A stretch of DNA of 35,604 bases from positions 1 to 35,604 of the forward strand of contig NZ_SUTM01000025.1 in assembly GCF_015062935.1 (NCBI RefSeq). The letters run 5' to 3'. The translations under genes and the position numbers were made by a program. Of this stretch, positions 18,554 through 35,604 are shown one piece after another (within the stretch, counting starts at the first letter, position 1; each line of letters begins with the position of its first letter). This stretch comes from Methanobrevibacter sp. GTDB lineage: Archaea > Methanobacteriota > Methanobacteria > Methanobacteriales > Methanobacteriaceae. Under the pieces are notes generated by a model, which saw nothing but the letters and a program-made list of their open reading frames with translations, did not search any database and had not been told where the DNA came from.

Positions 18554-18579
18554 AAAGTAGCTCGAAAGCTACTTAAAAT
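18554..18579 (-). terminator. Terminator of the giant adhesin gene
   Basis: Read on the minus strand, a perfect 8-bp stem (18574-18567 with 18562-18555) with a 4-base loop lies directly after the adhesin stop codon and runs into a long T-rich tract (complement of the A tract from about 18542 to 18556). Confidence 0.8.
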
Positions 18580-21500
18580 CATCTTCTCTTCAATATATTC
18601 TTACCACAAACTGCACCCATACTAAAAACAAACAACAATATGATTACCATAAACGGATTACCTGAAACATGTTTTTTAAGAACAGATTCAGAATATTTAA
18701 TTAATTCTTCCTCATGATTTTTTACATGCTCTTTTTTAACATTATCTACAGGATTATGTTTATTGGAAACATTTATAGTTACAGTATCATTATTATTGTT
18801 CAAATCAGAGTCATAATTGTCACTTTTTGCAACAACATTATTATTTGCAGTTCCCGGTTTTTTAGCTATTGCATTGACTTTTAAGAATGCTGATTCACCA
18901 ACATCCAACTCATCCAATGACCAGACATTGTTCTCCTCATCAAAGTCACCCCCGCTAGCCTTAAATGACTTAAACAATAATGAATTATCCATAATCTCAC
19001 GAACTTCAACATTTTCTGCTTTATCAGGTCCGTTATTTGTCAGTTTAATGGAAAATTTAACCAAATCTCCCACTGAATACTTATATTTAGAAACTGTCTT
19101 TGTAATGGAGATGTCACTAGCAGGTCTCACAAATACAGACTCTTTAGCATCATTGTTGCTTAAATCAGGGTCAGTTTCACTAGCCCATACTTCAGCAGCA
19201 TTCACAAAATTGCCTGTAGCTTTGATTTTACATACAATTTCTAATTTTACGGATTGGCCGTTTAACAAATCACCAATATAGAATAGTGAATCTTCTAATT
19301 TTCCACCATACACATCAACAATCTCCAAACCTTTTGGAATTACATCACTTACAAATACATTGGATGCATCGTTAGGACCATTGTTTTTTACAATCAATGT
19401 CCATTTAATTAAATCCAAATAATTTGCTTGAGTAACATTGGCAAATTTAATTATTGACATGTCCGCAATTGGATTGACAGAAATTTTCTCACTATCATCG
19501 TTATTTGATTCATTCCAGTCATATTGTGATGGAATAACACTTACAATGTTTTCAATATCATTTAACCTATTTATTAAACAACGAAGCATCAGATATTGGC
19601 TTTCACCTAAACTTAAATGATTTAATTGCCAAATGCCATCATAATAAGTGCCTGCACTACAGCTGTAACTTATTAACTCTAAGCCGTCAGGCAATATATC
19701 AACCACCAATACATCATCACTGTCATCAGGACCGTTATTTGTAACAGTTATTGTCCATTCAACAATATCCCCATAATCAGGATATGAATTGTCTACGGTC
19801 TTTGTGACAGACAAATCTGAAGATTTTGGAACTGAAACAGTATTGTTATCAACATTATTGGACAAATCAGGATCATATTCATTGCCTTTGATTGTCGCAA
19901 CATTGGTTAAATCCCCAGTTTTTGTAACCTCACAAATCAATTCCAAAGTTTGGTTTTCACCAGGTTCAATGCAGCAAACCGCCCAGACACCATTGTCATA
20001 AAATCCTTTTGTTGCAGTGTAATTGACCATTTTTAAGCCTTCCGGCAAACTATCCTCAACATAAACCCCTGTAGCTTTATTTGGACCGTTATTGATGGCT
20101 ATTACTGTCCATTTAACAAACTGGAGATAATCAACAGTTGATTGATTTACCAATTTTATAACTTTTAAATCTGAAGCATTGGCAACTTTGATTGTTTTGT
20201 TATATTCATTATTGGATTTATTCCAGTCAAACTCTTTACCTGTGACTGATACATTATTGACAAATTCACCAGTTGCATTAACTCTGGAAATTATGTTTAA
20301 ATGTTTTGTTTCACCTTTACTTAAGGTTCCAACATTCCAAATACCAGAATTATGATTATATTTGCCATTTGAATCATCACTGCTCCATATTAATCCAACT
20401 GGAAGCAGGTCAGAAATGATAACTCCAGTAGCAGCATCAGGACCATTATTAGTCACAGTTATTGTCCATTTAACTAAATCCTGATAGTTTGGTGAAGATT
20501 CATTTACATGTTTTGTTACTGTTAAATCAGTTGCAGGTTTAACGAATATGGAAGCATTATCTCTATTATTGATAGGATTTTGATCAAACTCATTACCTTT
20601 GACGCTTGCAACATTAACGAAACTTCCAGTGACATTGACTCTAGTATAGATATCAACACTAACAGAACTGCCAACACCTAAACTGCCAATATCAATAACC
20701 CCTTTATTTAACGGTTTTGTGGAATTTAAATAAACAAAGCCCTTAGGCAAAGTATCATAAATTTTAACACCACTAGCAGCATTTGGACCATAATTAGTAA
20801 CAGTCAAAGTCCATTTAACAACATCAGTATAATTAACAACACTTTCACTAACAACTTTAACAACAGCCAAATCACAGGCCGGACTAACATTAACAACCTC
20901 AGAATCATAATTATTAGACATATCCCAATCAAACTCATTGCCGGAAACGCTAACAACATTCTCAATAACGCCAGTAGCATTAACCCTACAAACAACAGAC
21001 AAACTAGCAGTGCCACCATTACTTAAAGTTCCAACATTCCATACTCCGGAATTGTGATTATATTTCCCATTTGAATCATCATTAATCCAAATTAAAGTTT
21101 TTGGAAGTTTATCACTGACTTTTACTCCAGTAGCGGCATTCGGACCATTATTTGTAACAGTTATTGTCCATTTTATCAAATCGTTAATGTTTACTTCTGA
21201 AGCATTAACATCTTTAACAACACCTAAATCCGCTGCAGGTTTCACTAAAATGGAAGCATTGTCTCTGTTATTGATAGGATTTTGATCAAACTCATTACCT
21301 TTGACGCTTGCAACATTAACGAAACTTCCAGTGACATTGACTCTAGTATAGATATCAACACTAACAGAACTGCCAACACCTAAACTGCCAATATCAATAA
21401 CCCCTTTATTTAACGGTTTTGTGGAATTTAAATAAACAAAGCCCTTAGGCAAAGTATCATAAATTTTAACACCACTAGCAGCATTTGGACCATAATTAGT

Positions 21501-24500
21501 AACAGTCAAAGTCCATTTAACAACATCAGTATAATTAACAACACTTTCACTAACAACTTTAACAACAGCCAAATCACAGGCCGGACTAACATTAACAACC
21601 TCAGAATCATAATTATTAGACATATCCCAATCAAACTCATTGCCGGAAACGCTAACAACATTCTCAATAACGCCAGTAGCATTAACCCTACAAACAACAG
21701 ACAAACTAGCAGTACCTCTATTATTTAAAGTTCCAACATTCCAAATTCCAGTATTATTGTTATAGTTACCGCTTGATCTAACAAATATTAATGATTCTGG
21801 AAGAACTTCTTTAACTTTTACTTCAGTAGCTGTATTTGGACCATTATTTGTAACGGTAATTGTCCATTCAATTAAATCTCCCAAATCCGGCCTTGAATTA
21901 TTCACTGATTTTTTAATACCCAAATCGGATGCAGGTTTTATGAAAATGGAAGCATTGTCCTTATTATTGTCAGGATTATAATCATGTTGATTTCCTTTGA
22001 CGCTTGCAACATTAACAAAACTGCCAGTGATATTAGCTCTGCAGTAAATATCAACACTGACAGAACCGCCAACACCTAAACTACCAATGTCAACAACACC
22101 ATTATTTAACGGTTTGGTAGAATTCAAATAAATAAATCCATTAGGCAAAGTATCATAAATTTTAACACCACTAGCAGCATTTGGACCATAATTAGTAACA
22201 GTCAAAGTCCATTTAACAACATCAGTATAATTAACAACACTTTCACTAACAACTTTAACAATAGCTAAATCACATGCAGGATTAACCTTTATTTTGTCAC
22301 TATCTTGGTTATTTGATTTATTCCAATCGTATTGTTGTCCTGATACTGAAACTTCATTTTCAATAGTTCCGGTTGCATTAACTTTACATGTTATATGCAA
22401 TGTAGCGCTCTTGCCGTTATTTAATGTACCGATGTTCCATACTCCAGTTTCATGATTATACTTCCCATTTGAATCATCACTATCCCAGATTAAAGATTTT
22501 GGAAGCAAATCGTTTGCAATTACTCTTGTTGCAACATCAGGACCGTTATTTGTAACAGTTATTGTCCATTTTACAAAATCGCCCATATTGACAGTAGTCA
22601 CATTAACAGTTTTTACGACAGCAAGATCAGCTGCTGAATCAACATTTATCTTAGATTGGTCGTGGTTGTTTGTTATATTGTAATCATATTCATCAGCTGT
22701 AACATTTACATTGTTAACAATTTCCCCTGTTTTGTTAATCTGGGTCTTGATTGTGACAATATAAATTTCACCCACTTCCAAAAAGTCAATTGTTAAAGTA
22801 CCGGTTTTCGGATTATAATCTCCATTTGTATTGTCTTCCAACCAGATTAATCCATCAGGTAAAATATCCCTTACAACAACATTTGTTGCGTTACTTGGAC
22901 CGTTATTTGTAATATTCAATGTCCAGATAACAATGTCATCATAATTTATAACTTCAGGAGAAACGGATTTTCTGACTTTATCATCTACCTGTGCAGTTAC
23001 TGTGAATGTTGTTGAGTTGGTAATTGATTTATAATATGTATCTTCAAAATGCATTGCAGTTACATAGTATTTTCCAACTTTTAGATTGTTTAAATTATCA
23101 CTAACTTCACCAAACACATTAGAATTTAATGTTTTATTGTAAACAATGCTGCCGTCTTCATGTTTTACTGTTAATAATATCCCCATATTGTATTCACAGT
23201 CATCCTGATATAACTTATCTTGAGTATTTGCTCCTGAAACTGGAGTCTGGCCGTCAATATTTATGTAGGTGTTATCCGCAGCATTGTATATTGCATTGGA
23301 TACGGCTAAATTTCCGTATTTTCCAATGTTGTTACCACCATGAATAATTGAGCCTATTGTTTCGGTTTCGCCGAAGTAAATATCTTTTGCATAAATAGGC
23401 AATGCATAAACCCATGCCTGATTTTGGTATAATGTGTTATTGGTTAATTTTAAATCAAATCCTGACTTATCATAATAGATTGCACTACCGTTTCTTGCAG
23501 TATTATAACTGAAATCATTATCTTTAACTATTGCATAAGTACTGTTGATGTATATTGCACCACCCAATCCGTCATTTAATTTACTGACGTCAGGAATTGC
23601 ATCATTTGAAATAAATGAAGAACCTGCAATATTGGTGTTTGTTCCATTTATAAAAACCGCACCTCCATCAATATTTGCAATGTTATTGTTAAATGATGAA
23701 TCATCAATATTTACTGATTTTGCATTTATACAAACAGCCCCACCATATGTTGAAGCATTGTTATTGTTGAATTTACAATCTTTAACATTAACATTCATAC
23801 CGTTTAATTGTATGGCTCCACCAATTGGAGCAGCATTTCCATCAAAATCACATTGAACAATGTCTAAATCCATTGTTGAATATAAGTATCCTGTTGCTAA
23901 TGCCCCACCATAATATCTAGCGTAATTATCCATAAATGTACAATTTTTAATCAATCCTGAAGCGTGGTAGGTTAATGCTCCACCCTGAGATGCGGAGTTA
24001 TTGATAAAGATACAATTTTGATAAATTGTACCGTTACGTACACATCCTGCACCCCCATGTGCCCAACTGCTATCAGAATCTACATGATTATTTATAAATT
24101 TACATCCAGAGACTGTTACTCTTGCTTTATAATCATCCAATCCAACTTGAATTGCACCACCATATGGAACATAACCCCTAGGATCACCATAAGCACTGTT
24201 TGAATCAAATAAACAATTTTCAACAATAGAATTATCTCCATAGACCTCTAATGCACCTGAGCTAACCAGAGCATGATTAGATATGAACTGACAGTTTTTT
24301 ACTTTCATATTAACTGCAGTCACATTGTCTCCCATCGTGGAAACTGCACCTCCTCTCAACGCAGCATTACCCTTAAAAATACAATTCGTAAACTCTATGT
24401 TTTTTGTCTCAATTCTAATAGCACCACCTAATCCTGACGTATTTCCATTAATAAATTTGATATTATTGAATGTGGATCCTGCCGCAGACGCATTGAGAAA

Positions 24501-24956
24501 CATTATCTGAGACATTCCCTTACCGTTCAGTGTTGCAGTCGAATCTGCAGTAAAAAATATTTTTTTGTTCACCACGATTTTATCATACTTCTTTTCTGCA
24601 TTATATGTGCCACTTAATTTTAATGTATCCCCACTATTGGCACTTTTAATTGCTTTTCTAATATCTGCAAAAGTATTTCCAGAAACAGGAGTTATTTTTG
24701 CTCCTAAAAGTTCATTGTTTTCATCAACACTTAACGAATAATCACTTTCAACATTCATAGTCAATATTTCATCATGAGAATTTTCTAGTTTATCTTCAAT
24801 ATTTAATTCACTCCCCATTCCAAAATCACTCTGATTTAAATCCAGAGCATAAATGTTATCCATACTTACCCCAACAGAAGTAACTACTAAAATAACAAAC
24901 AACAGTGAAATTAGAAAGTGATTGCTAATAGCTGTTTTTTTACTATTTTTAAACAT
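18579..24956 (-). CDS. Giant DUF11-repeat adhesin with beta-helix
   Basis: This 2125-residue surface protein begins with a signal or membrane segment (about residues 12-36). A beta-helix domain of repeated GGA(I/V)-NCxF-NN turns spans about 75-520 and an Ig-like stretch about 590-655. About twelve tandem DUF11 domains (about 655-2055) follow, each roughly 115 residues and marked by DLxVxKxV, W(T/S)(I/L)xVTNxGP, LPxGL and YDxxxSNNxD. The protein ends with a charged linker, a membrane helix (about 2098-2118) and a KRR stop-transfer end. DUF11 arrays act as stalks in archaeal and bacterial surface proteins, so the beta-helix is probably displayed away from the wall to bind a partner cell or glycan. 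The start is preceded by AGGTGATT (24962-24969). Part of the repeat array is internally duplicated almost without change (see repeats). The partner is unknown. Confidence 0.92.
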   Translation of the reverse strand: MFKNSKKTAISNHFLISLLFVILVVTSVGVSMDNIYALDLNQSDFGMGSELNIEDKLENSHDEILTMNVESDYSLSVDENNELLGAKITPVSGNTFADIRKAIKSANSGDTLKLSGTYNAEKKYDKIVVNKKIFFTADSTATLNGKGMSQIMFLNASAAGSTFNNIKFINGNTSGLGGAIRIETKNIEFTNCIFKGNAALRGGAVSTMGDNVTAVNMKVKNCQFISNHALVSSGALEVYGDNSIVENCLFDSNSAYGDPRGYVPYGGAIQVGLDDYKARVTVSGCKFINNHVDSDSSWAHGGAGCVRNGTIYQNCIFINNSASQGGALTYHASGLIKNCTFMDNYARYYGGALATGYLYSTMDLDIVQCDFDGNAAPIGGAIQLNGMNVNVKDCKFNNNNASTYGGAVCINAKSVNIDDSSFNNNIANIDGGAVFINGTNTNIAGSSFISNDAIPDVSKLNDGLGGAIYINSTYAIVKDNDFSYNTARNGSAIYYDKSGFDLKLTNNTLYQNQAWVYALPIYAKDIYFGETETIGSIIHGGNNIGKYGNLAVSNAIYNAADNTYINIDGQTPVSGANTQDKLYQDDCEYNMGILLTVKHEDGSIVYNKTLNSNVFGEVSDNLNNLKVGKYYVTAMHFEDTYYKSITNSTTFTVTAQVDDKVRKSVSPEVINYDDIVIWTLNITNNGPSNATNVVVRDILPDGLIWLEDNTNGDYNPKTGTLTIDFLEVGEIYIVTIKTQINKTGEIVNNVNVTADEYDYNITNNHDQSKINVDSAADLAVVKTVNVTTVNMGDFVKWTITVTNNGPDVATRVIANDLLPKSLIWDSDDSNGKYNHETGVWNIGTLNNGKSATLHITCKVNATGTIENEVSVSGQQYDWNKSNNQDSDKIKVNPACDLAIVKVVSESVVNYTDVVKWTLTVTNYGPNAASGVKIYDTLPNGFIYLNSTKPLNNGVVDIGSLGVGGSVSVDIYCRANITGSFVNVASVKGNQHDYNPDNNKDNASIFIKPASDLGIKKSVNNSRPDLGDLIEWTITVTNNGPNTATEVKVKEVLPESLIFVRSSGNYNNNTGIWNVGTLNNRGTASLSVVCRVNATGVIENVVSVSGNEFDWDMSNNYDSEVVNVSPACDLAVVKVVSESVVNYTDVVKWTLTVTNYGPNAASGVKIYDTLPKGFVYLNSTKPLNKGVIDIGSLGVGSSVSVDIYTRVNVTGSFVNVASVKGNEFDQNPINNRDNASILVKPAADLGVVKDVNASEVNINDLIKWTITVTNNGPNAATGVKVSDKLPKTLIWINDDSNGKYNHNSGVWNVGTLSNGGTASLSVVCRVNATGVIENVVSVSGNEFDWDMSNNYDSEVVNVSPACDLAVVKVVSESVVNYTDVVKWTLTVTNYGPNAASGVKIYDTLPKGFVYLNSTKPLNKGVIDIGSLGVGSSVSVDIYTRVNVTGSFVNVASVKGNEFDQNPINNRDNASIFVKPATDLTVTKHVNESSPNYQDLVKWTITVTNNGPDAATGVIISDLLPVGLIWSSDDSNGKYNHNSGIWNVGTLSKGETKHLNIISRVNATGEFVNNVSVTGKEFDWNKSNNEYNKTIKVANASDLKVIKLVNQSTVDYLQFVKWTVIAINNGPNKATGVYVEDSLPEGLKMVNYTATKGFYDNGVWAVCCIEPGENQTLELICEVTKTGDLTNVATIKGNEYDPDLSNNVDNNTVSVPKSSDLSVTKTVDNSYPDYGDIVEWTITVTNNGPDDSDDVLVVDILPDGLELISYSCSAGTYYDGIWQLNHLSLGESQYLMLRCLINRLNDIENIVSVIPSQYDWNESNNDDSEKISVNPIADMSIIKFANVTQANYLDLIKWTLIVKNNGPNDASNVFVSDVIPKGLEIVDVYGGKLEDSLFYIGDLLNGQSVKLEIVCKIKATGNFVNAAEVWASETDPDLSNNDAKESVFVRPASDISITKTVSKYKYSVGDLVKFSIKLTNNGPDKAENVEVREIMDNSLLFKSFKASGGDFDEENNVWSLDELDVGESAFLKVNAIAKKPGTANNNVVAKSDNYDSDLNNNNDTVTINVSNKHNPVDNVKKEHVKNHEEELIKYSESVLKKHVSGNPFMVIILLFVFSMGAVCGKNILKRR
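20566..21011 (-). repeat. Direct repeat copy 1 in the DUF11 array (446 bp)
   Basis: By eye this segment is base-for-base the same as 21268-21713, offset by 702 bp. It codes for the DUF11 unit with DLAVVKVVSESVVNY and its flanks. The 702-bp period equals 234 codons, or two DUF11 domains, so the duplicated unit is a domain pair and keeps the reading frame. Confidence 0.9.
21268..21713 (-). repeat. Direct repeat copy 2 in the DUF11 array (446 bp)
   Basis: This is the second copy of the 446-bp segment. A shorter stretch of the same unit, 22141-22261 (121 bp), also matches 21445-21565 exactly, while the rest of that third unit has diverged. The mix of identity and divergence points to recent duplication or gene conversion. 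Confidence 0.9.
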
Positions 24957-25422: not shown

Positions 25423-26556
25423 ATGAAAAAGAAAATTGCAATACTACTATTAGCATTATTAATTGTCTCACCAATGGTTCAGGGAGTTACCGCATCCAAA
25501 ACAGTGTTCATAACTTCCGATAACCTCATAGACCATGATACTGACGTTGATATGCTGAATTCAATTAAAAAGTACATAGAAGAAATTAGTGGAGGTGAAC
25601 TTCAAGTAATTGTTGACAACCAGGCACCTTCACCAGGAGAAGGATATCGGGCAATTCAAGTAACAAGTGATGTAAGCATATGTTTAGCCGCATGTGATGC
25701 AGGGAATTTCTTACAATTAGCAACAGCTACAAAAGATACCAATAAACAAATTGTTTTAGTGAATACTGGAGATTATGATTTGGATAATCACACCAATTAC
25801 CTTAGACGTGCTTGGGATGACAATTATTCCAATGAAACATTTATGGGAATGCATGATCCAGGAACATTCCTAAAAAATGATGGAATATACTACATCCAGC
25901 CATTAAAAGAATTCCCAGACAATGGAAGAAACGGTTATATCGACAGATACGATGACAAAATGAACGAACAAATAGCTAAGGAAATTGTTGACATAGTCAA
26001 TGCACATGGAAATGATACAAAGATATTCAGTGACAATATGATTGTATCAAACAAGATAGCTCCAAGCACTCTCGCAAATGCAAGTAAAGCACTGATTGCC
26101 AGTAACGATACTCAAATGAATGGCACTTATGGAAATTACTCAGCGGCACAGTTGCTTTATCAAGCAAGTTCCTATTTGAATGGAAATGGATTGGATATTC
26201 CAAAGGCAATGGCCGGACCTGAAAATCCTATGGGCATTTCATTTTTAGTAAAAGACAAATATTCAATTTATGATTATATAAATATGGCAGGAATAGTTAG
26301 AAATTATATGGATGCAAATGGACGTGCCCCAGACTCAATTGAGTACGAGGGAGCACATATAGGTTATTATGATCTGCTTTATAATTTTGCTAAAATAACC
26401 CAAAACCATACTGATGCAAAACATATGGGCTTTAATAAAGAATATAGTTTCGATAAAGTCAATGATTCATTCTTACTCAAAGCATTCCCATTCATATTGA
26501 TTTTATTCGTATTATTCATTGCATATTTAGGATATAGAAGATTTAGAAAATATTAA
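25423..26556 (+). CDS. Membrane-anchored protein with pseudomurein-binding repeat
   Basis: This 377-residue exported protein has a signal peptide (about residues 1-25, KKKIAILLLALLIVS core). An N-terminal alpha/beta-looking domain of about 200 residues (TVFITSDN onward) is not one I recognise. One pseudomurein-binding repeat lies at about residues 280-325, with the pattern IYDYINMAG then VRNYMDANGRAPDSI. A C-terminal membrane helix (about 350-371) ends in a basic tail. Such repeats hold proteins to the pseudomurein wall of Methanobacteriales. The protein would thus be fixed both to the membrane and to the wall, and the N-terminal domain is the likely functional part. Possible N-glycosylation sequons (Asn-x-Thr/Ser) are frequent. 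It is divergent from the giant adhesin. Confidence 0.78.
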   Translation: MKKKIAILLLALLIVSPMVQGVTASKTVFITSDNLIDHDTDVDMLNSIKKYIEEISGGELQVIVDNQAPSPGEGYRAIQVTSDVSICLAACDAGNFLQLATATKDTNKQIVLVNTGDYDLDNHTNYLRRAWDDNYSNETFMGMHDPGTFLKNDGIYYIQPLKEFPDNGRNGYIDRYDDKMNEQIAKEIVDIVNAHGNDTKIFSDNMIVSNKIAPSTLANASKALIASNDTQMNGTYGNYSAAQLLYQASSYLNGNGLDIPKAMAGPENPMGISFLVKDKYSIYDYINMAGIVRNYMDANGRAPDSIEYEGAHIGYYDLLYNFAKITQNHTDAKHMGFNKEYSFDKVNDSFLLKAFPFILILFVLFIAYLGYRRFRKY

Positions 26557-31129: not shown

Positions 31130-31213
31130 TTTATCCACTCATTATGAAATATTATAGTCATTTGTAATTTTTTTAATAAAAATTGTCATAGTGAGAACCA
31201 AGAAGGTGTAAAT

Positions 31214-34054
31214 ATTTCGATTAAAAAAACAGCATTATTAATTTCTGTTGTGTTAATCTTATTCTTTTTAATAGGGAGCATTAGTGCAACCGAAATAAGT
31301 AATGCTACAAATACAGAAAGTTCTAATTTAATGGTAGAAAATGAGGACGTAGCTTTAACTGATTTAAATGATTCTAAATTGGAATTAAGCTCCGAATCAC
31401 TAGAATATGGTTCAAACACATCTGATAATGAAATGCTCATGAGCAGTCCACAGAATATACAAACTGCTGATGAAAATTCAACATCAGATTCATCTAACAC
31501 AACAACCATAACAACAAAAATCGATGTGAACAATCCTCGTTATTCCCAGTCAGGCACTGTAATAAAAGTTACTTTAAAAGATAGTGATGGTAATCTGCTT
31601 GGAAATAAAACTGTTAGCTTAAAAATTAACAGTAAAACCTACACAGACACCACAAATAATAATGGTGTGGCATATTTTACCGTCAGTGCTCTTAAAAAAG
31701 CATCATCATATTCAGTGAAAATAAATTTTGCTGGAGATTCAGAATATGAAAAAAGTTCTTTAACAAAAACAATTAAAGTAGTATCCTCAATTTCCGCAAC
31801 CAATCAAGTTAAAGGATATGGTGAAAATAAAAGATTTACAGCCAAATTTTTAAAAGACAATTACATTTTAAAAAATACCAATGTAAAATTTACAGTTAAC
31901 GGTAAAACATACACCGTAAAAACTGATTCAAAGGGTGTTGCAAAATTAACTGCAAGTCTTAAGCCTGGAAAATATAATATAAAAATTTATAATAGTTATT
32001 CCAAAGAAACAGTAACAAAAACTTTTACTGTTAACAAAGGACCTACCACCATTACTGGATCAAATGCATACATACTTCCTAAAACCAAATACTCTTATTC
32101 CGTTGTATTGAAAAACAGTAGAGGCACATTGCTTAAAAACGGTAAAATCCACTTTACTTATAACGGTAAAGAAGTGATTAAAACTACCAATGCAAACGGA
32201 AAAGCAACCTTGACTATTCCTGCTCTTTCAAAAGGTACATACACAATTAAGTATCAATTTAAAAGAAGCAGCAATTATAAGTCAACTAGTGGTTCTAAAA
32301 AGTTATATGTAAAAGATTCAACAACAAAACTTAAGGCAACTACCTTAAAAATGCAATACAATGATGGATCAGTATTTTCCGTTAAATTAACTGATTCTGC
32401 TGGAAAAGCAATGGCCAATAAAACTATAAAAATTACTTTAAACGGAAAAACCACGTCAAAAACTACTGACAGTACGGGTGTGGCCAAATTAAGTATAGGC
32501 AACTTAAAACCAGCAACATATACAGTTAAATCAACTTACTCAAAAGCAGGTTTAAAAGATTACAATATCTTAACAAGCAGTGTTGTAATATCAAAACAGA
32601 CTGCCAGTATAACCGCAAGCGATTTAGTTATGGAATATAAAGATGGGTCCGTTTATCAAATAACTCTTAAAAATAAAACCGGATCAGTCCTCCCAAATAC
32701 CACAATCCAATTTACCTTAAATGGAAAAACCATCAATGTAAATACTGATGGAAATGGTGTGGCAAAATTAGCTATCTCTGAAGATGTAGGATACTATGTA
32801 ATAAAATCAGCCGTAAGCTCCACATATTATACTTCTTCTGAAGTATCAAAACATGTGTTAGTTAACGGTACTAAATTTACTGCAAGCGATTTAATTTCCC
32901 CTCCTAATACCAATAATAATTTCACAGTGAAATTATTAGACGGACAGGGAAAAGAGGTTTCCGGAAAAACTGTTAAATTTACATTGAACAGTAAAGAACA
33001 ATCTGTAAAAACAGACTCAAATGGTATAGCAAGACTTTCCCTTTCAGGACTGGCACAAGGAACTTACACCGTTTCATATACTGATGGATTTGCTTCAGGT
33101 ACATCAAAAATAACAATAGTTGAAAAAGTTACATTAAAACAAATCATTGCAGCATCACAAAATGTTAAAAAATACATTGAAGGCAATGAAGCTTTACCTA
33201 AGACCGTTACAATAGGTAGTGTGACTTATTCACTTGCGGAATATATGTATCTAGCATCTCAGGCCATTATTAATTTAGATAAAAATAGTAAAGCTGACAT
33301 CAGTGTAAAAGCAGTGAATGCCCCTGCAAGTCCAAAAGAAGCATCTACTTTAGGAAATCTTTATGATTACGTTTCAGTTGCGAAAAGTGTTGTGAATACT
33401 GTTAATTCAAAAGGCACTATGCCAGATTCCGTAAGTTCAAAAGTTGGAACTATTGGTTACAATGGATTAGTTTATGCTACTGCTCGTGTTGTAGCGTTCT
33501 ATGATGATTATTCCATAATGCCTAACTACGTATCCATTAAAACATACAGTAGTACTTCAAGTTCAAGTTCATTGAACTCAAAAAATACTATAACAAACTT
33601 AAAAGCATATTTGGCTGCTTCCACCAATTGTCAAGTAGGAAACAGTAAAATCAAATCACTTGTTAATTCACTTACTTCAGGATTAACAACCGATCTTGCT
33701 AAAGCAAGAGCAATATACAATTATGTACGTGATTCAATATCCTACAGTTTCTATTATAACACTAAATATGGTGCTGTCGGCACTCTTAATGCTAAAACCG
33801 GAAATTGTGTTGACCAGGCTCATTTATTAATAGCTATGTATAGAACTGCAGGCCTTGCTGCAAGATATGCTCATGGAACATGTTACTTCACATTAAGTGG
33901 AAGTACATACGGACACGTTTGGACTCAAGTCTTAATTGGCGATACTTGGATTGTAGGAGATCCAACAAGTGCAAGAAATTCATTTGGAAATGTTGTTAAT
34001 TGGAACAACTATAATTATAACCTTAAAGGTTATTATTCTAGCATTGCATTCTAA
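31214..34054 (+). CDS. Secreted pseudomurein-binding protein with transglutaminase-like domain
   Basis: This protein of about 946 residues (934 from GTG 31250; numbers here count from that GTG) has a signal peptide and six Ig-like repeats (about 90-620), each with TDxxGxAxLxxxxLxxGxY signatures. Two pseudomurein-binding repeats follow (about 627-675 and 700-750), then a C-terminal transglutaminase-like domain with the triad C853 (GNCVDQAH), H889 (YGHVW) and D904 (VGDPTS). This combination resembles the pseudomurein endoisopeptidases PeiW and PeiP of methanogen viruses, so it may cut or remodel the peptide cross-links of the cell's own wall, or those of neighbours. The signal peptide's basic part (SIKKTALL) lies upstream of GTG 31250. 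No ATG, GTG or TTG precedes it in frame back to the stop at 31145, and the AAGGTG ribosome site points to ATT 31214. Confidence 0.85.
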   Translation: MSIKKTALLISVVLILFFLIGSISATEISNATNTESSNLMVENEDVALTDLNDSKLELSSESLEYGSNTSDNEMLMSSPQNIQTADENSTSDSSNTTTITTKIDVNNPRYSQSGTVIKVTLKDSDGNLLGNKTVSLKINSKTYTDTTNNNGVAYFTVSALKKASSYSVKINFAGDSEYEKSSLTKTIKVVSSISATNQVKGYGENKRFTAKFLKDNYILKNTNVKFTVNGKTYTVKTDSKGVAKLTASLKPGKYNIKIYNSYSKETVTKTFTVNKGPTTITGSNAYILPKTKYSYSVVLKNSRGTLLKNGKIHFTYNGKEVIKTTNANGKATLTIPALSKGTYTIKYQFKRSSNYKSTSGSKKLYVKDSTTKLKATTLKMQYNDGSVFSVKLTDSAGKAMANKTIKITLNGKTTSKTTDSTGVAKLSIGNLKPATYTVKSTYSKAGLKDYNILTSSVVISKQTASITASDLVMEYKDGSVYQITLKNKTGSVLPNTTIQFTLNGKTINVNTDGNGVAKLAISEDVGYYVIKSAVSSTYYTSSEVSKHVLVNGTKFTASDLISPPNTNNNFTVKLLDGQGKEVSGKTVKFTLNSKEQSVKTDSNGIARLSLSGLAQGTYTVSYTDGFASGTSKITIVEKVTLKQIIAASQNVKKYIEGNEALPKTVTIGSVTYSLAEYMYLASQAIINLDKNSKADISVKAVNAPASPKEASTLGNLYDYVSVAKSVVNTVNSKGTMPDSVSSKVGTIGYNGLVYATARVVAFYDDYSIMPNYVSIKTYSSTSSSSSLNSKNTITNLKAYLAASTNCQVGNSKIKSLVNSLTSGLTTDLAKARAIYNYVRDSISYSFYYNTKYGAVGTLNAKTGNCVDQAHLLIAMYRTAGLAARYAHGTCYFTLSGSTYGHVWTQVLIGDTWIVGDPTSARNSFGNVVNWNNYNYNLKGYYSSIAF

Positions 34055-35343: not shown

Positions 35344-35604
35344 ATGAGCAGTAATTTGAATAGGAATCAGCATTCAGTATACATATTAACTTATCATTTA
35401 GTATTGGTGATTAAATATCGTAGAAATGTAATTAATGAAGATATATTCGATTCATTAATGGTTATTTTTGATAATATTGGTTTTAAATATGGTATTCAAG
35501 TTAAAGAAGCGAATTGGGAGGTTGATCATATTCATATTTTATTTGAAGCTAAACCAAGTACTAATTTGGTTAAATTCATTAATTCTTATAAAAGTGCAAG
35601 TAGC
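35344..35604 (+). CDS. tnpA: IS200/IS605 transposase TnpA, partial (5' 87 codons)
   Basis: This is the N-terminal 87 residues of a Y1 single-strand transposase. The start, with NRNQHSVYILTYHLVLVIKYRR, is typical of IS200-type TnpA, and VDHIHILFE contains the HUH metal-binding pair (His-Ile-His). The catalytic tyrosine would lie further on, beyond the window. Family members are about 130-155 residues long, so roughly the last 50 to 65 residues are missing. The reading frame is intact as far as it can be seen, so the copy may be active. It is preceded by the left-end hairpin. Confidence 0.9.
   Translation, partial: MSSNLNRNQHSVYILTYHLVLVIKYRRNVINEDIFDSLMVIFDNIGFKYGIQVKEANWEVDHIHILFEAKPSTNLVKFINSYKSASS

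Follow-up and report, generated by a model that had tools for sequence, protein, structure and literature searches.

The gene at positions 31214-34054 (+) of the window, by which is meant the whole 35,604-nucleotide stretch of DNA analysed, is a complete open frame for a secreted protein of 946 residues, in which Ig-like repeats and pseudomurein-binding (PMBR) repeats precede a C-terminal transglutaminase-fold cysteine peptidase domain. With a probability slightly better than even, this host-coded enzyme cleaves or remodels the cell's own pseudomurein wall, a function favoured because a conserved paralog fuses the same PMBR and transglutaminase unit to a putative glycosyl hydrolase. Judging from the nucleotide sequence, translation of the gene most likely starts at an AUU codon.

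Domain Architecture

The preliminary description had read a signal peptide, six Ig-like repeats, pseudomurein-binding repeats and a C-terminal Cys-His-Asp transglutaminase-like domain in this frame, and inspection of the sequence (for the signal peptide), Pfam, self-alignment and the family alignment confirm all of these modules; likewise, the start that it placed at 31214 is an in-frame ATT codon, and the frame is open to 34054. The features are as follows, with residue numbers counted from the ATT codon.

31204..31219 (+), translation-initiation element AGGTGTAAATATTTCG: Shine-Dalgarno AGGTG, 5-nt spacer, ATT, second codon TCG
31214..31216 (+), inferred ATT start codon, with no ATG, GTG or TTG from the upstream stop to the signal-peptide core
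31214..31288 (+), signal peptide (M)SIKKTALLISVVLILFFLIGSISA, read from sequence
31289..31501 (+), Ser/Asn/Thr-rich linker, fast-evolving (19-45% identity among orthologs)
31502..33127 (+), six Ig-like (Big_1/Big_3_5) repeats (Pfam, self-alignment), starting at 31502, 31790, 32039, 32321, 32600 and 32870 (+)
33128..33547 (+), four pseudomurein-binding repeats (Pfam PMBR, PeiW alignment, four helices in the model), starting at 33128, 33230 (PMBR2, degenerate), 33359 and 33458 (+)
33599..34051 (+), transglutaminase-fold cysteine peptidase domain (PF01841 E 1e-24; Foldseek matches PeiP, 3isr, TglA and PeiW)
33806..33808 (+), catalytic Cys865 in the motif G-N-C-V-D, invariant in 88 relatives and also present in the aligned Pei enzymes
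33914..33916 (+), catalytic His901 in the motif G-H-V-W, invariant in 88 relatives
33959..33961 (+), catalytic Asp916, invariant in the family

Such an arrangement of modules is far beyond chance, with Pfam E-values of 7.6e-30 for Big_1, 3e-14 for PMBR and 5e-24 for Transglut_core; in the predicted structure, each PMBR repeat corresponds to one helix. The N-terminal membrane/signal segment is the single one in the protein, and a C-terminal membrane segment is absent (sequence, hydropathy). No right-handed beta-helix domain occurs among the Pfam matches, an NCBIfam scan of the protein gave no family above its cut-off, and a PHROGs search returned a single weak match to a function-unknown family.

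This architecture has a published counterpart in the Group III (transglutaminase-type) adhesin-like proteins, described in 2024 from Methanobrevibacter smithii and Methanosphaera stadtmanae; in the available part of that report (PMC11532034), they have an N-terminal membrane/signal segment, Ig-like ABD repeats and PMBR beside a C-terminal transglutaminase domain. With its single N-terminal segment, no C-terminal anchor, Ig-like repeats, PMBR-transglutaminase C-terminus and no beta-helix, the window protein shares the features of the group, and as an enzyme it is therefore a further member of an already described architecture. However, the available part of the report presents Group III proteins as adhesins, and wall cleavage, an AUU start and glycosyl-hydrolase-fused paralogs are absent from its description.

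Genomic Setting and Descent

Contig C25, which contains the window, belongs to a genome of 2.5 Mb (completeness 99.6%) whose named relatives are Methanobrevibacter from rumen and gut. Cellular genes adjoin the transglutaminase gene upstream (aquaporin, UMP kinase, TatD and nitroreductase; Pfam, NCBIfam), and the order pyrH-TatD-YbjQ-YbjQ2-TG is kept in 8/8 orthologs examined, so that the gene is chromosomal and host-coded. A provirus origin is ruled out by these neighbours, the synteny and the tree.

Regarding its distribution, all 132 genomes of the phylum that were searched with the family profile, from 20 genera and 4 families, carry the family, mostly as more than one copy; PMBR occurs in none of 14 control genomes. 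The tree groups the window gene and its orthologs into an 11-row clade within one genus, nested in a 73-row clade that gathers nearly all copies from that genus, among them all four of the window's genome; thus, the family multiplied by duplication within host lineages. Selective constraint is strongest in the catalytic domain: compared with eight orthologs, this domain shows 85-91% identity at a dN/dS of ∼0.1, the Ig part 55-64% at ∼0.2 and the linker 19-45% at nearly 0.8; identity of the PMBR part is 67-84%.

Paralogs and Viral Relatives

The four secreted copies with a transglutaminase-fold domain in the window's genome lie on contigs C25, C20, C23 and C11. The one on C23 (L001:803-4813) joins a putative glycosyl hydrolase (DUF4015) to PMBR repeats and a transglutaminase domain, and the M. 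thermautotrophicus paralog L146/L172 carries the same fusion. This composition is that of a predicted wall hydrolase, the glycosyl-hydrolase annotation of DUF4015 being itself putative. Some paralogs carry the catalytic unit with little or no Ig stalk.

As for viruses, ORF35 of Methanobacterium virus Drs3 (AXN53416.1, L097:2992-3894) matches the whole PMBR and transglutaminase unit end to end (hhalign E 7e-55), with ∼30% identity. Unlike the window protein, it is viral, has an ATG start and lacks the signal peptide and the Ig repeats; its gene lies just after tail genes, and it is likely a lysin that belongs to neither the C71 nor the C39 type. A literature search in open-licence papers found no report of the conserved glycosyl-hydrolase fusion or of this end-to-end viral relative, and earlier reports may exist.

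Other proteins with related domains were also observed. The viral protein L099:2311-3378 (vir080), encoded in a tail gene cluster, has an N-terminal tail-like part and a C-terminal domain similar to the transglutaminase domain of the family (NCCDHAH, GHVY). The window's genome also encodes five short PMBR and Peptidase_C71 proteins of viral type (L005, L006, L007, L008 and L009, on its contigs C16, C7, C1, C24 and C30), which are ∼270 aa long, have no signal peptide and resemble Pei of virus MSTV1; so many copies in a single genome are unusual and may mark proviruses or remnants. Finally, a second, shorter secreted TG-like family (L161, L152, L155, L168, L170 and L092), with PMBR in some members, has the same ATT start element and the motif GDCWGLSDW ... 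SSRHRW ... FEPSLVTKRYGSKHY.

Catalytic Domain and Relationship to the Pei Enzymes

The window protein fits the transglutaminase-like superfamily PF01841, with a Pfam score of 87.3 bits against a cut-off of 23 and Cys865, His901 and Asp916 invariant in 88/88 aligned family members; the Asp of PeiW and PeiP is offset from the Asp916 column in the alignment. The score for PF12386, the C71 family, is 13.9 bits for the whole protein and 15.8 for its C-terminal part, below the gathering cut-off of 22, and an assignment to peptidase family C71 was dropped for this reason. Since by sequence it belongs to PF01841 and the C71 score stays under the cut-off, the protein is classed as a relative of the Pei enzymes, not a C71 member. 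A weak C71 match is found in 50 of 58 relatives, and the paralog on C20, scored with its neighbours in frame, gives 22.1 (cut-off 22).

PeiW and PeiP (C71; PMC2989375, PMC4592898; PDB 8jx4, 8z4f) share with the window protein the succession of four PMBR repeats and a C-terminal Cys-His-Asp transglutaminase-like domain, whereas they are viral, have no signal peptide or Ig repeats and form the distinct sequence family PF12386. Of the likeness to these enzymes noted in the preliminary description, the fold and the PMBR-then-catalytic build were borne out, but not the sequence family. A structure model of residues 639-946, built on an alignment of 58 relatives (mean pLDDT 92.1, pTM 0.62), served for the comparison with PeiW and PeiP structures that the description had suggested. 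In a Foldseek search of the PDB with this model, the top match was full-length PeiP (8z4f, E 8.6e-10), followed by the TG-like protein 3isr, TglA, the PeiW catalytic domain (8jx4, E 1.5e-4) and TgpA; among the viral structures of BFVD, PeiP was again the best match. These superpositions are driven by the catalytic domain, and because the full-length rmsd to PeiP is ∼20 Å, the placement of the PMBR relative to the catalytic module is not settled by the model. Profile matches of the family also include the PeiW catalytic domain and PeiP, and the profile alignment with PeiW covers both the PMBR and the catalytic parts (247 columns, probability 97).

Proposed Function in the Cell Wall

Secretion, attachment to the wall through PMBR and the cysteine triad are read from the sequence. 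If the enzyme cleaves and remodels its own wall, it would bind pseudomurein through the PMBR repeats, with the six Ig-like repeats forming an extended N-terminal stalk, and the Cys-His-Asp triad in the transglutaminase fold would act on the peptide cross-bridges. The reaction would most likely be the hydrolysis of isopeptide bonds, as in PeiW and PeiP, whose family cuts the Ala-epsilon-Lys bond of pseudomurein, and would remodel the wall during growth and division. Cleavage is supported by PeiP as the best match in both structure libraries, by the low dN/dS of the catalytic domain, by the universality of the family, by the order of four PMBR repeats and then the catalytic domain, as in PeiW and PeiP, and by virus Drs3, which carries the whole PMBR and transglutaminase unit in the position expected of a lysin; on the other hand, the G-H-V-W motif and the TG-like neighbours 3isr, TglA and TgpA fit a transglutaminase equally well, and the protein falls below the C71 cut-off.

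The main rival to cleavage is cross-linking, which is possible although clearly less probable: the Cys would form a thioester with the acyl group of a stem peptide and transfer this group to the amino group of Lys in an adjacent peptide, thereby taking the role of a bacterial transpeptidase. The pseudomurein cross-link is thought to be gamma-Glu-epsilon-Lys (PMC4592898), and both this chemistry and the lack of any known pseudomurein transpeptidase (PMC2812497, PMC4592898, PMC11915815) agree with such a role. In 2010, Leahy et al. proposed that transglutaminases, those of M. ruminantium, form this cross-link (PMC2812497), and in 2025 Lupo et al. named the exported transglutaminases of pseudomurein archaea in orthogroup OG0000044, which probably includes the window family, as the best candidate (PMC11915815). 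The occurrence of the family in every pseudomurein genome searched and a fold common to true transglutaminases (Foldseek) point the same way. However, among solved structures the nearest ones that share the two-module build are those of lytic enzymes, the PMBR and transglutaminase unit is carried by a virus as well as by the glycosyl-hydrolase fusion, and the window's ortholog group is limited to part of one genus, unlike an essential cross-linker, a task that another paralog could serve. The paralog family could also comprise both activities, cleavage and cross-linking, in different members.

It is doubtful that the protein is instead an adhesin that anchors itself, with the transglutaminase domain covalently fixing the Ig-like stalk to pseudomurein or to other surface proteins. 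In favour of this reading, ABD repeats without a C-terminal anchor are described for the Group III adhesin-like proteins (PMC11532034), and a membrane segment is likewise missing from the C-terminus of the window protein. Against it, the catalytic unit persists in paralogs that carry a glycosyl hydrolase or that have hardly any Ig stalk or none, and it is the catalytic domain that is most constrained while the Ig part evolves faster.

Finally, the preliminary description had proposed a host-coded secreted wall enzyme, which stands on the synteny, the signal peptide, the PMBR repeats and the PeiP match, and had added as an alternative a weapon secreted against other pseudomurein-walled archaea, which is highly improbable because the family occurs in 132/132 genomes with several copies each: the signal peptide, the PMBR repeats and viral relatives that lyse pseudomurein-walled cells (PMC4592898) would suit a weapon, but vertical inheritance and conserved synteny speak against it, no immunity-like gene could be recognised next to the enzyme gene in the window, and the PMBR repeats would retain the enzyme on the producer's own wall.

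In the papers searched, the enzymes known to cleave pseudomurein cross-bridges are viral, and no cellular one that opens or joins them is described as characterised. Because the family is universal in pseudomurein archaea and existing synthetic substrates allow its catalytic domain to be assayed, it can be tested directly which enzymes remodel or cross-link this wall.

Probable Initiation at AUU

At the start of the gene stands AGAAGGTGTAAAT-ATT-TCG; a second gene of the window shows the matching context with ATG, GAGGTGTAAAC-ATG. The first in-frame ATG, GTG or TTG is the GTG at 31250, inside the signal peptide, and the ATT at the start position is invariant in 9/9 orthologs. An exact match to the initiation element occurs once per genome in five of six same-genus genomes, always at the counterpart of the window gene. 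An Rfam search of the 5' end of the gene gave no known RNA element.

The start was then surveyed in 81 relatives picked by protein homology alone: 74 have ATT (59), ATA or ATC at Shine-Dalgarno spacing, and 43 of these 74 have no canonical start at that spacing; as for the remaining members, three have a canonical start only and four have neither. The element of Shine-Dalgarno, ATT and TCG on secreted transglutaminase-fold wall proteins spans four families of the phylum (besides the window, loci L063, L064, L069, L076, L079, L082, L086, L089, L123, L187 and L189), and in some genera several copies have ATG in place of ATT. Most secreted transglutaminase-fold wall enzymes of pseudomurein archaea have probably been started at AUU, rarely at AUC or AUA, within a conserved Shine-Dalgarno element from a time before the families of the phylum diverged. 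Family-wide use is not proven, because some Methanobrevibacter copies have a TTG right after the ATT that is a possible start.

It is unlikely that translation starts instead at a downstream ATG, GTG or TTG, or in an upstream frame joined by a frameshift, the ATT being a conserved spacer only. Some relatives do have ATG or TTG one to four codons past the ATT, but 25 of the 81 members (the window gene and 24 others) lack ATG, GTG and TTG altogether upstream of the signal-peptide core, and the distance from Shine-Dalgarno to ATT is constant, mostly 5-7 nt. Moreover, L077 has an ATG exactly at this position (CATGGAGGCAGTATAATGAAGCGACAT), where L091 (CATGGGGGCGGTAAAATTAAGCGACAT), L078 and others have ATT in an otherwise matching sequence.

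The 18-base start element was also searched by itself in six genomes, allowing ≤3 mismatches, and gave 31 sites vs 10 for the reversed pattern; 26 of 30 sites read out open into a signal peptide, nearly all in PMBR or transglutaminase-fold proteins, among them a short TG-like family that the search profile does not cover. Genus-specific versions of the element gave 14 and 6 sites in six genomes of the window's genus (2 and 0 when reversed), all but ∼4 of them in PMBR/transglutaminase-fold family genes. Among 274 other reading frames, 15 of the 122 with an N-terminal hydrophobic stretch had no canonical start before it; ∼7 of these 15 seem to be wall proteins that share this start context, and the others appear to be miscalled.

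Non-canonical starts serve as control points in bacteria, where infC (AUU/ATT start) and Streptomyces sigR (GUC/GTC start) are both repressed by initiation factor IF3 (PMC5472188). By analogy, an AUU start may limit how much of a potentially lytic enzyme is made, or make that amount adjustable; infC and sigR are single bacterial genes, whereas the present case would concern an entire family of wall enzymes in archaea. If the family-wide reading is true, start-codon fidelity would be a shared throttle on wall-opening enzymes, and a start codon otherwise known from few single genes would be in use across a family, in a group to which methane producers of the rumen and the human gut belong. Because the AUU start is conserved, gene finders clip these signal peptides. 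Open-licence papers gave nothing relevant on AUU starts in archaea or in pseudomurein genes, and earlier reports may exist.

Other Genes of the Window

A large adhesin-like surface protein of 2125 residues, with twelve DUF11 repeats and an ordinary ATG start, is encoded at 18579-24956 (-), and the frame at 25423-26556 (+) gives a secreted protein of 377 residues in which a single weak PMBR repeat, but no catalytic domain, was recognised. Finally, the start of an open frame at 35344-35604 (+), cut by the window end, resembles by eye an IS200/IS605-type transposase.
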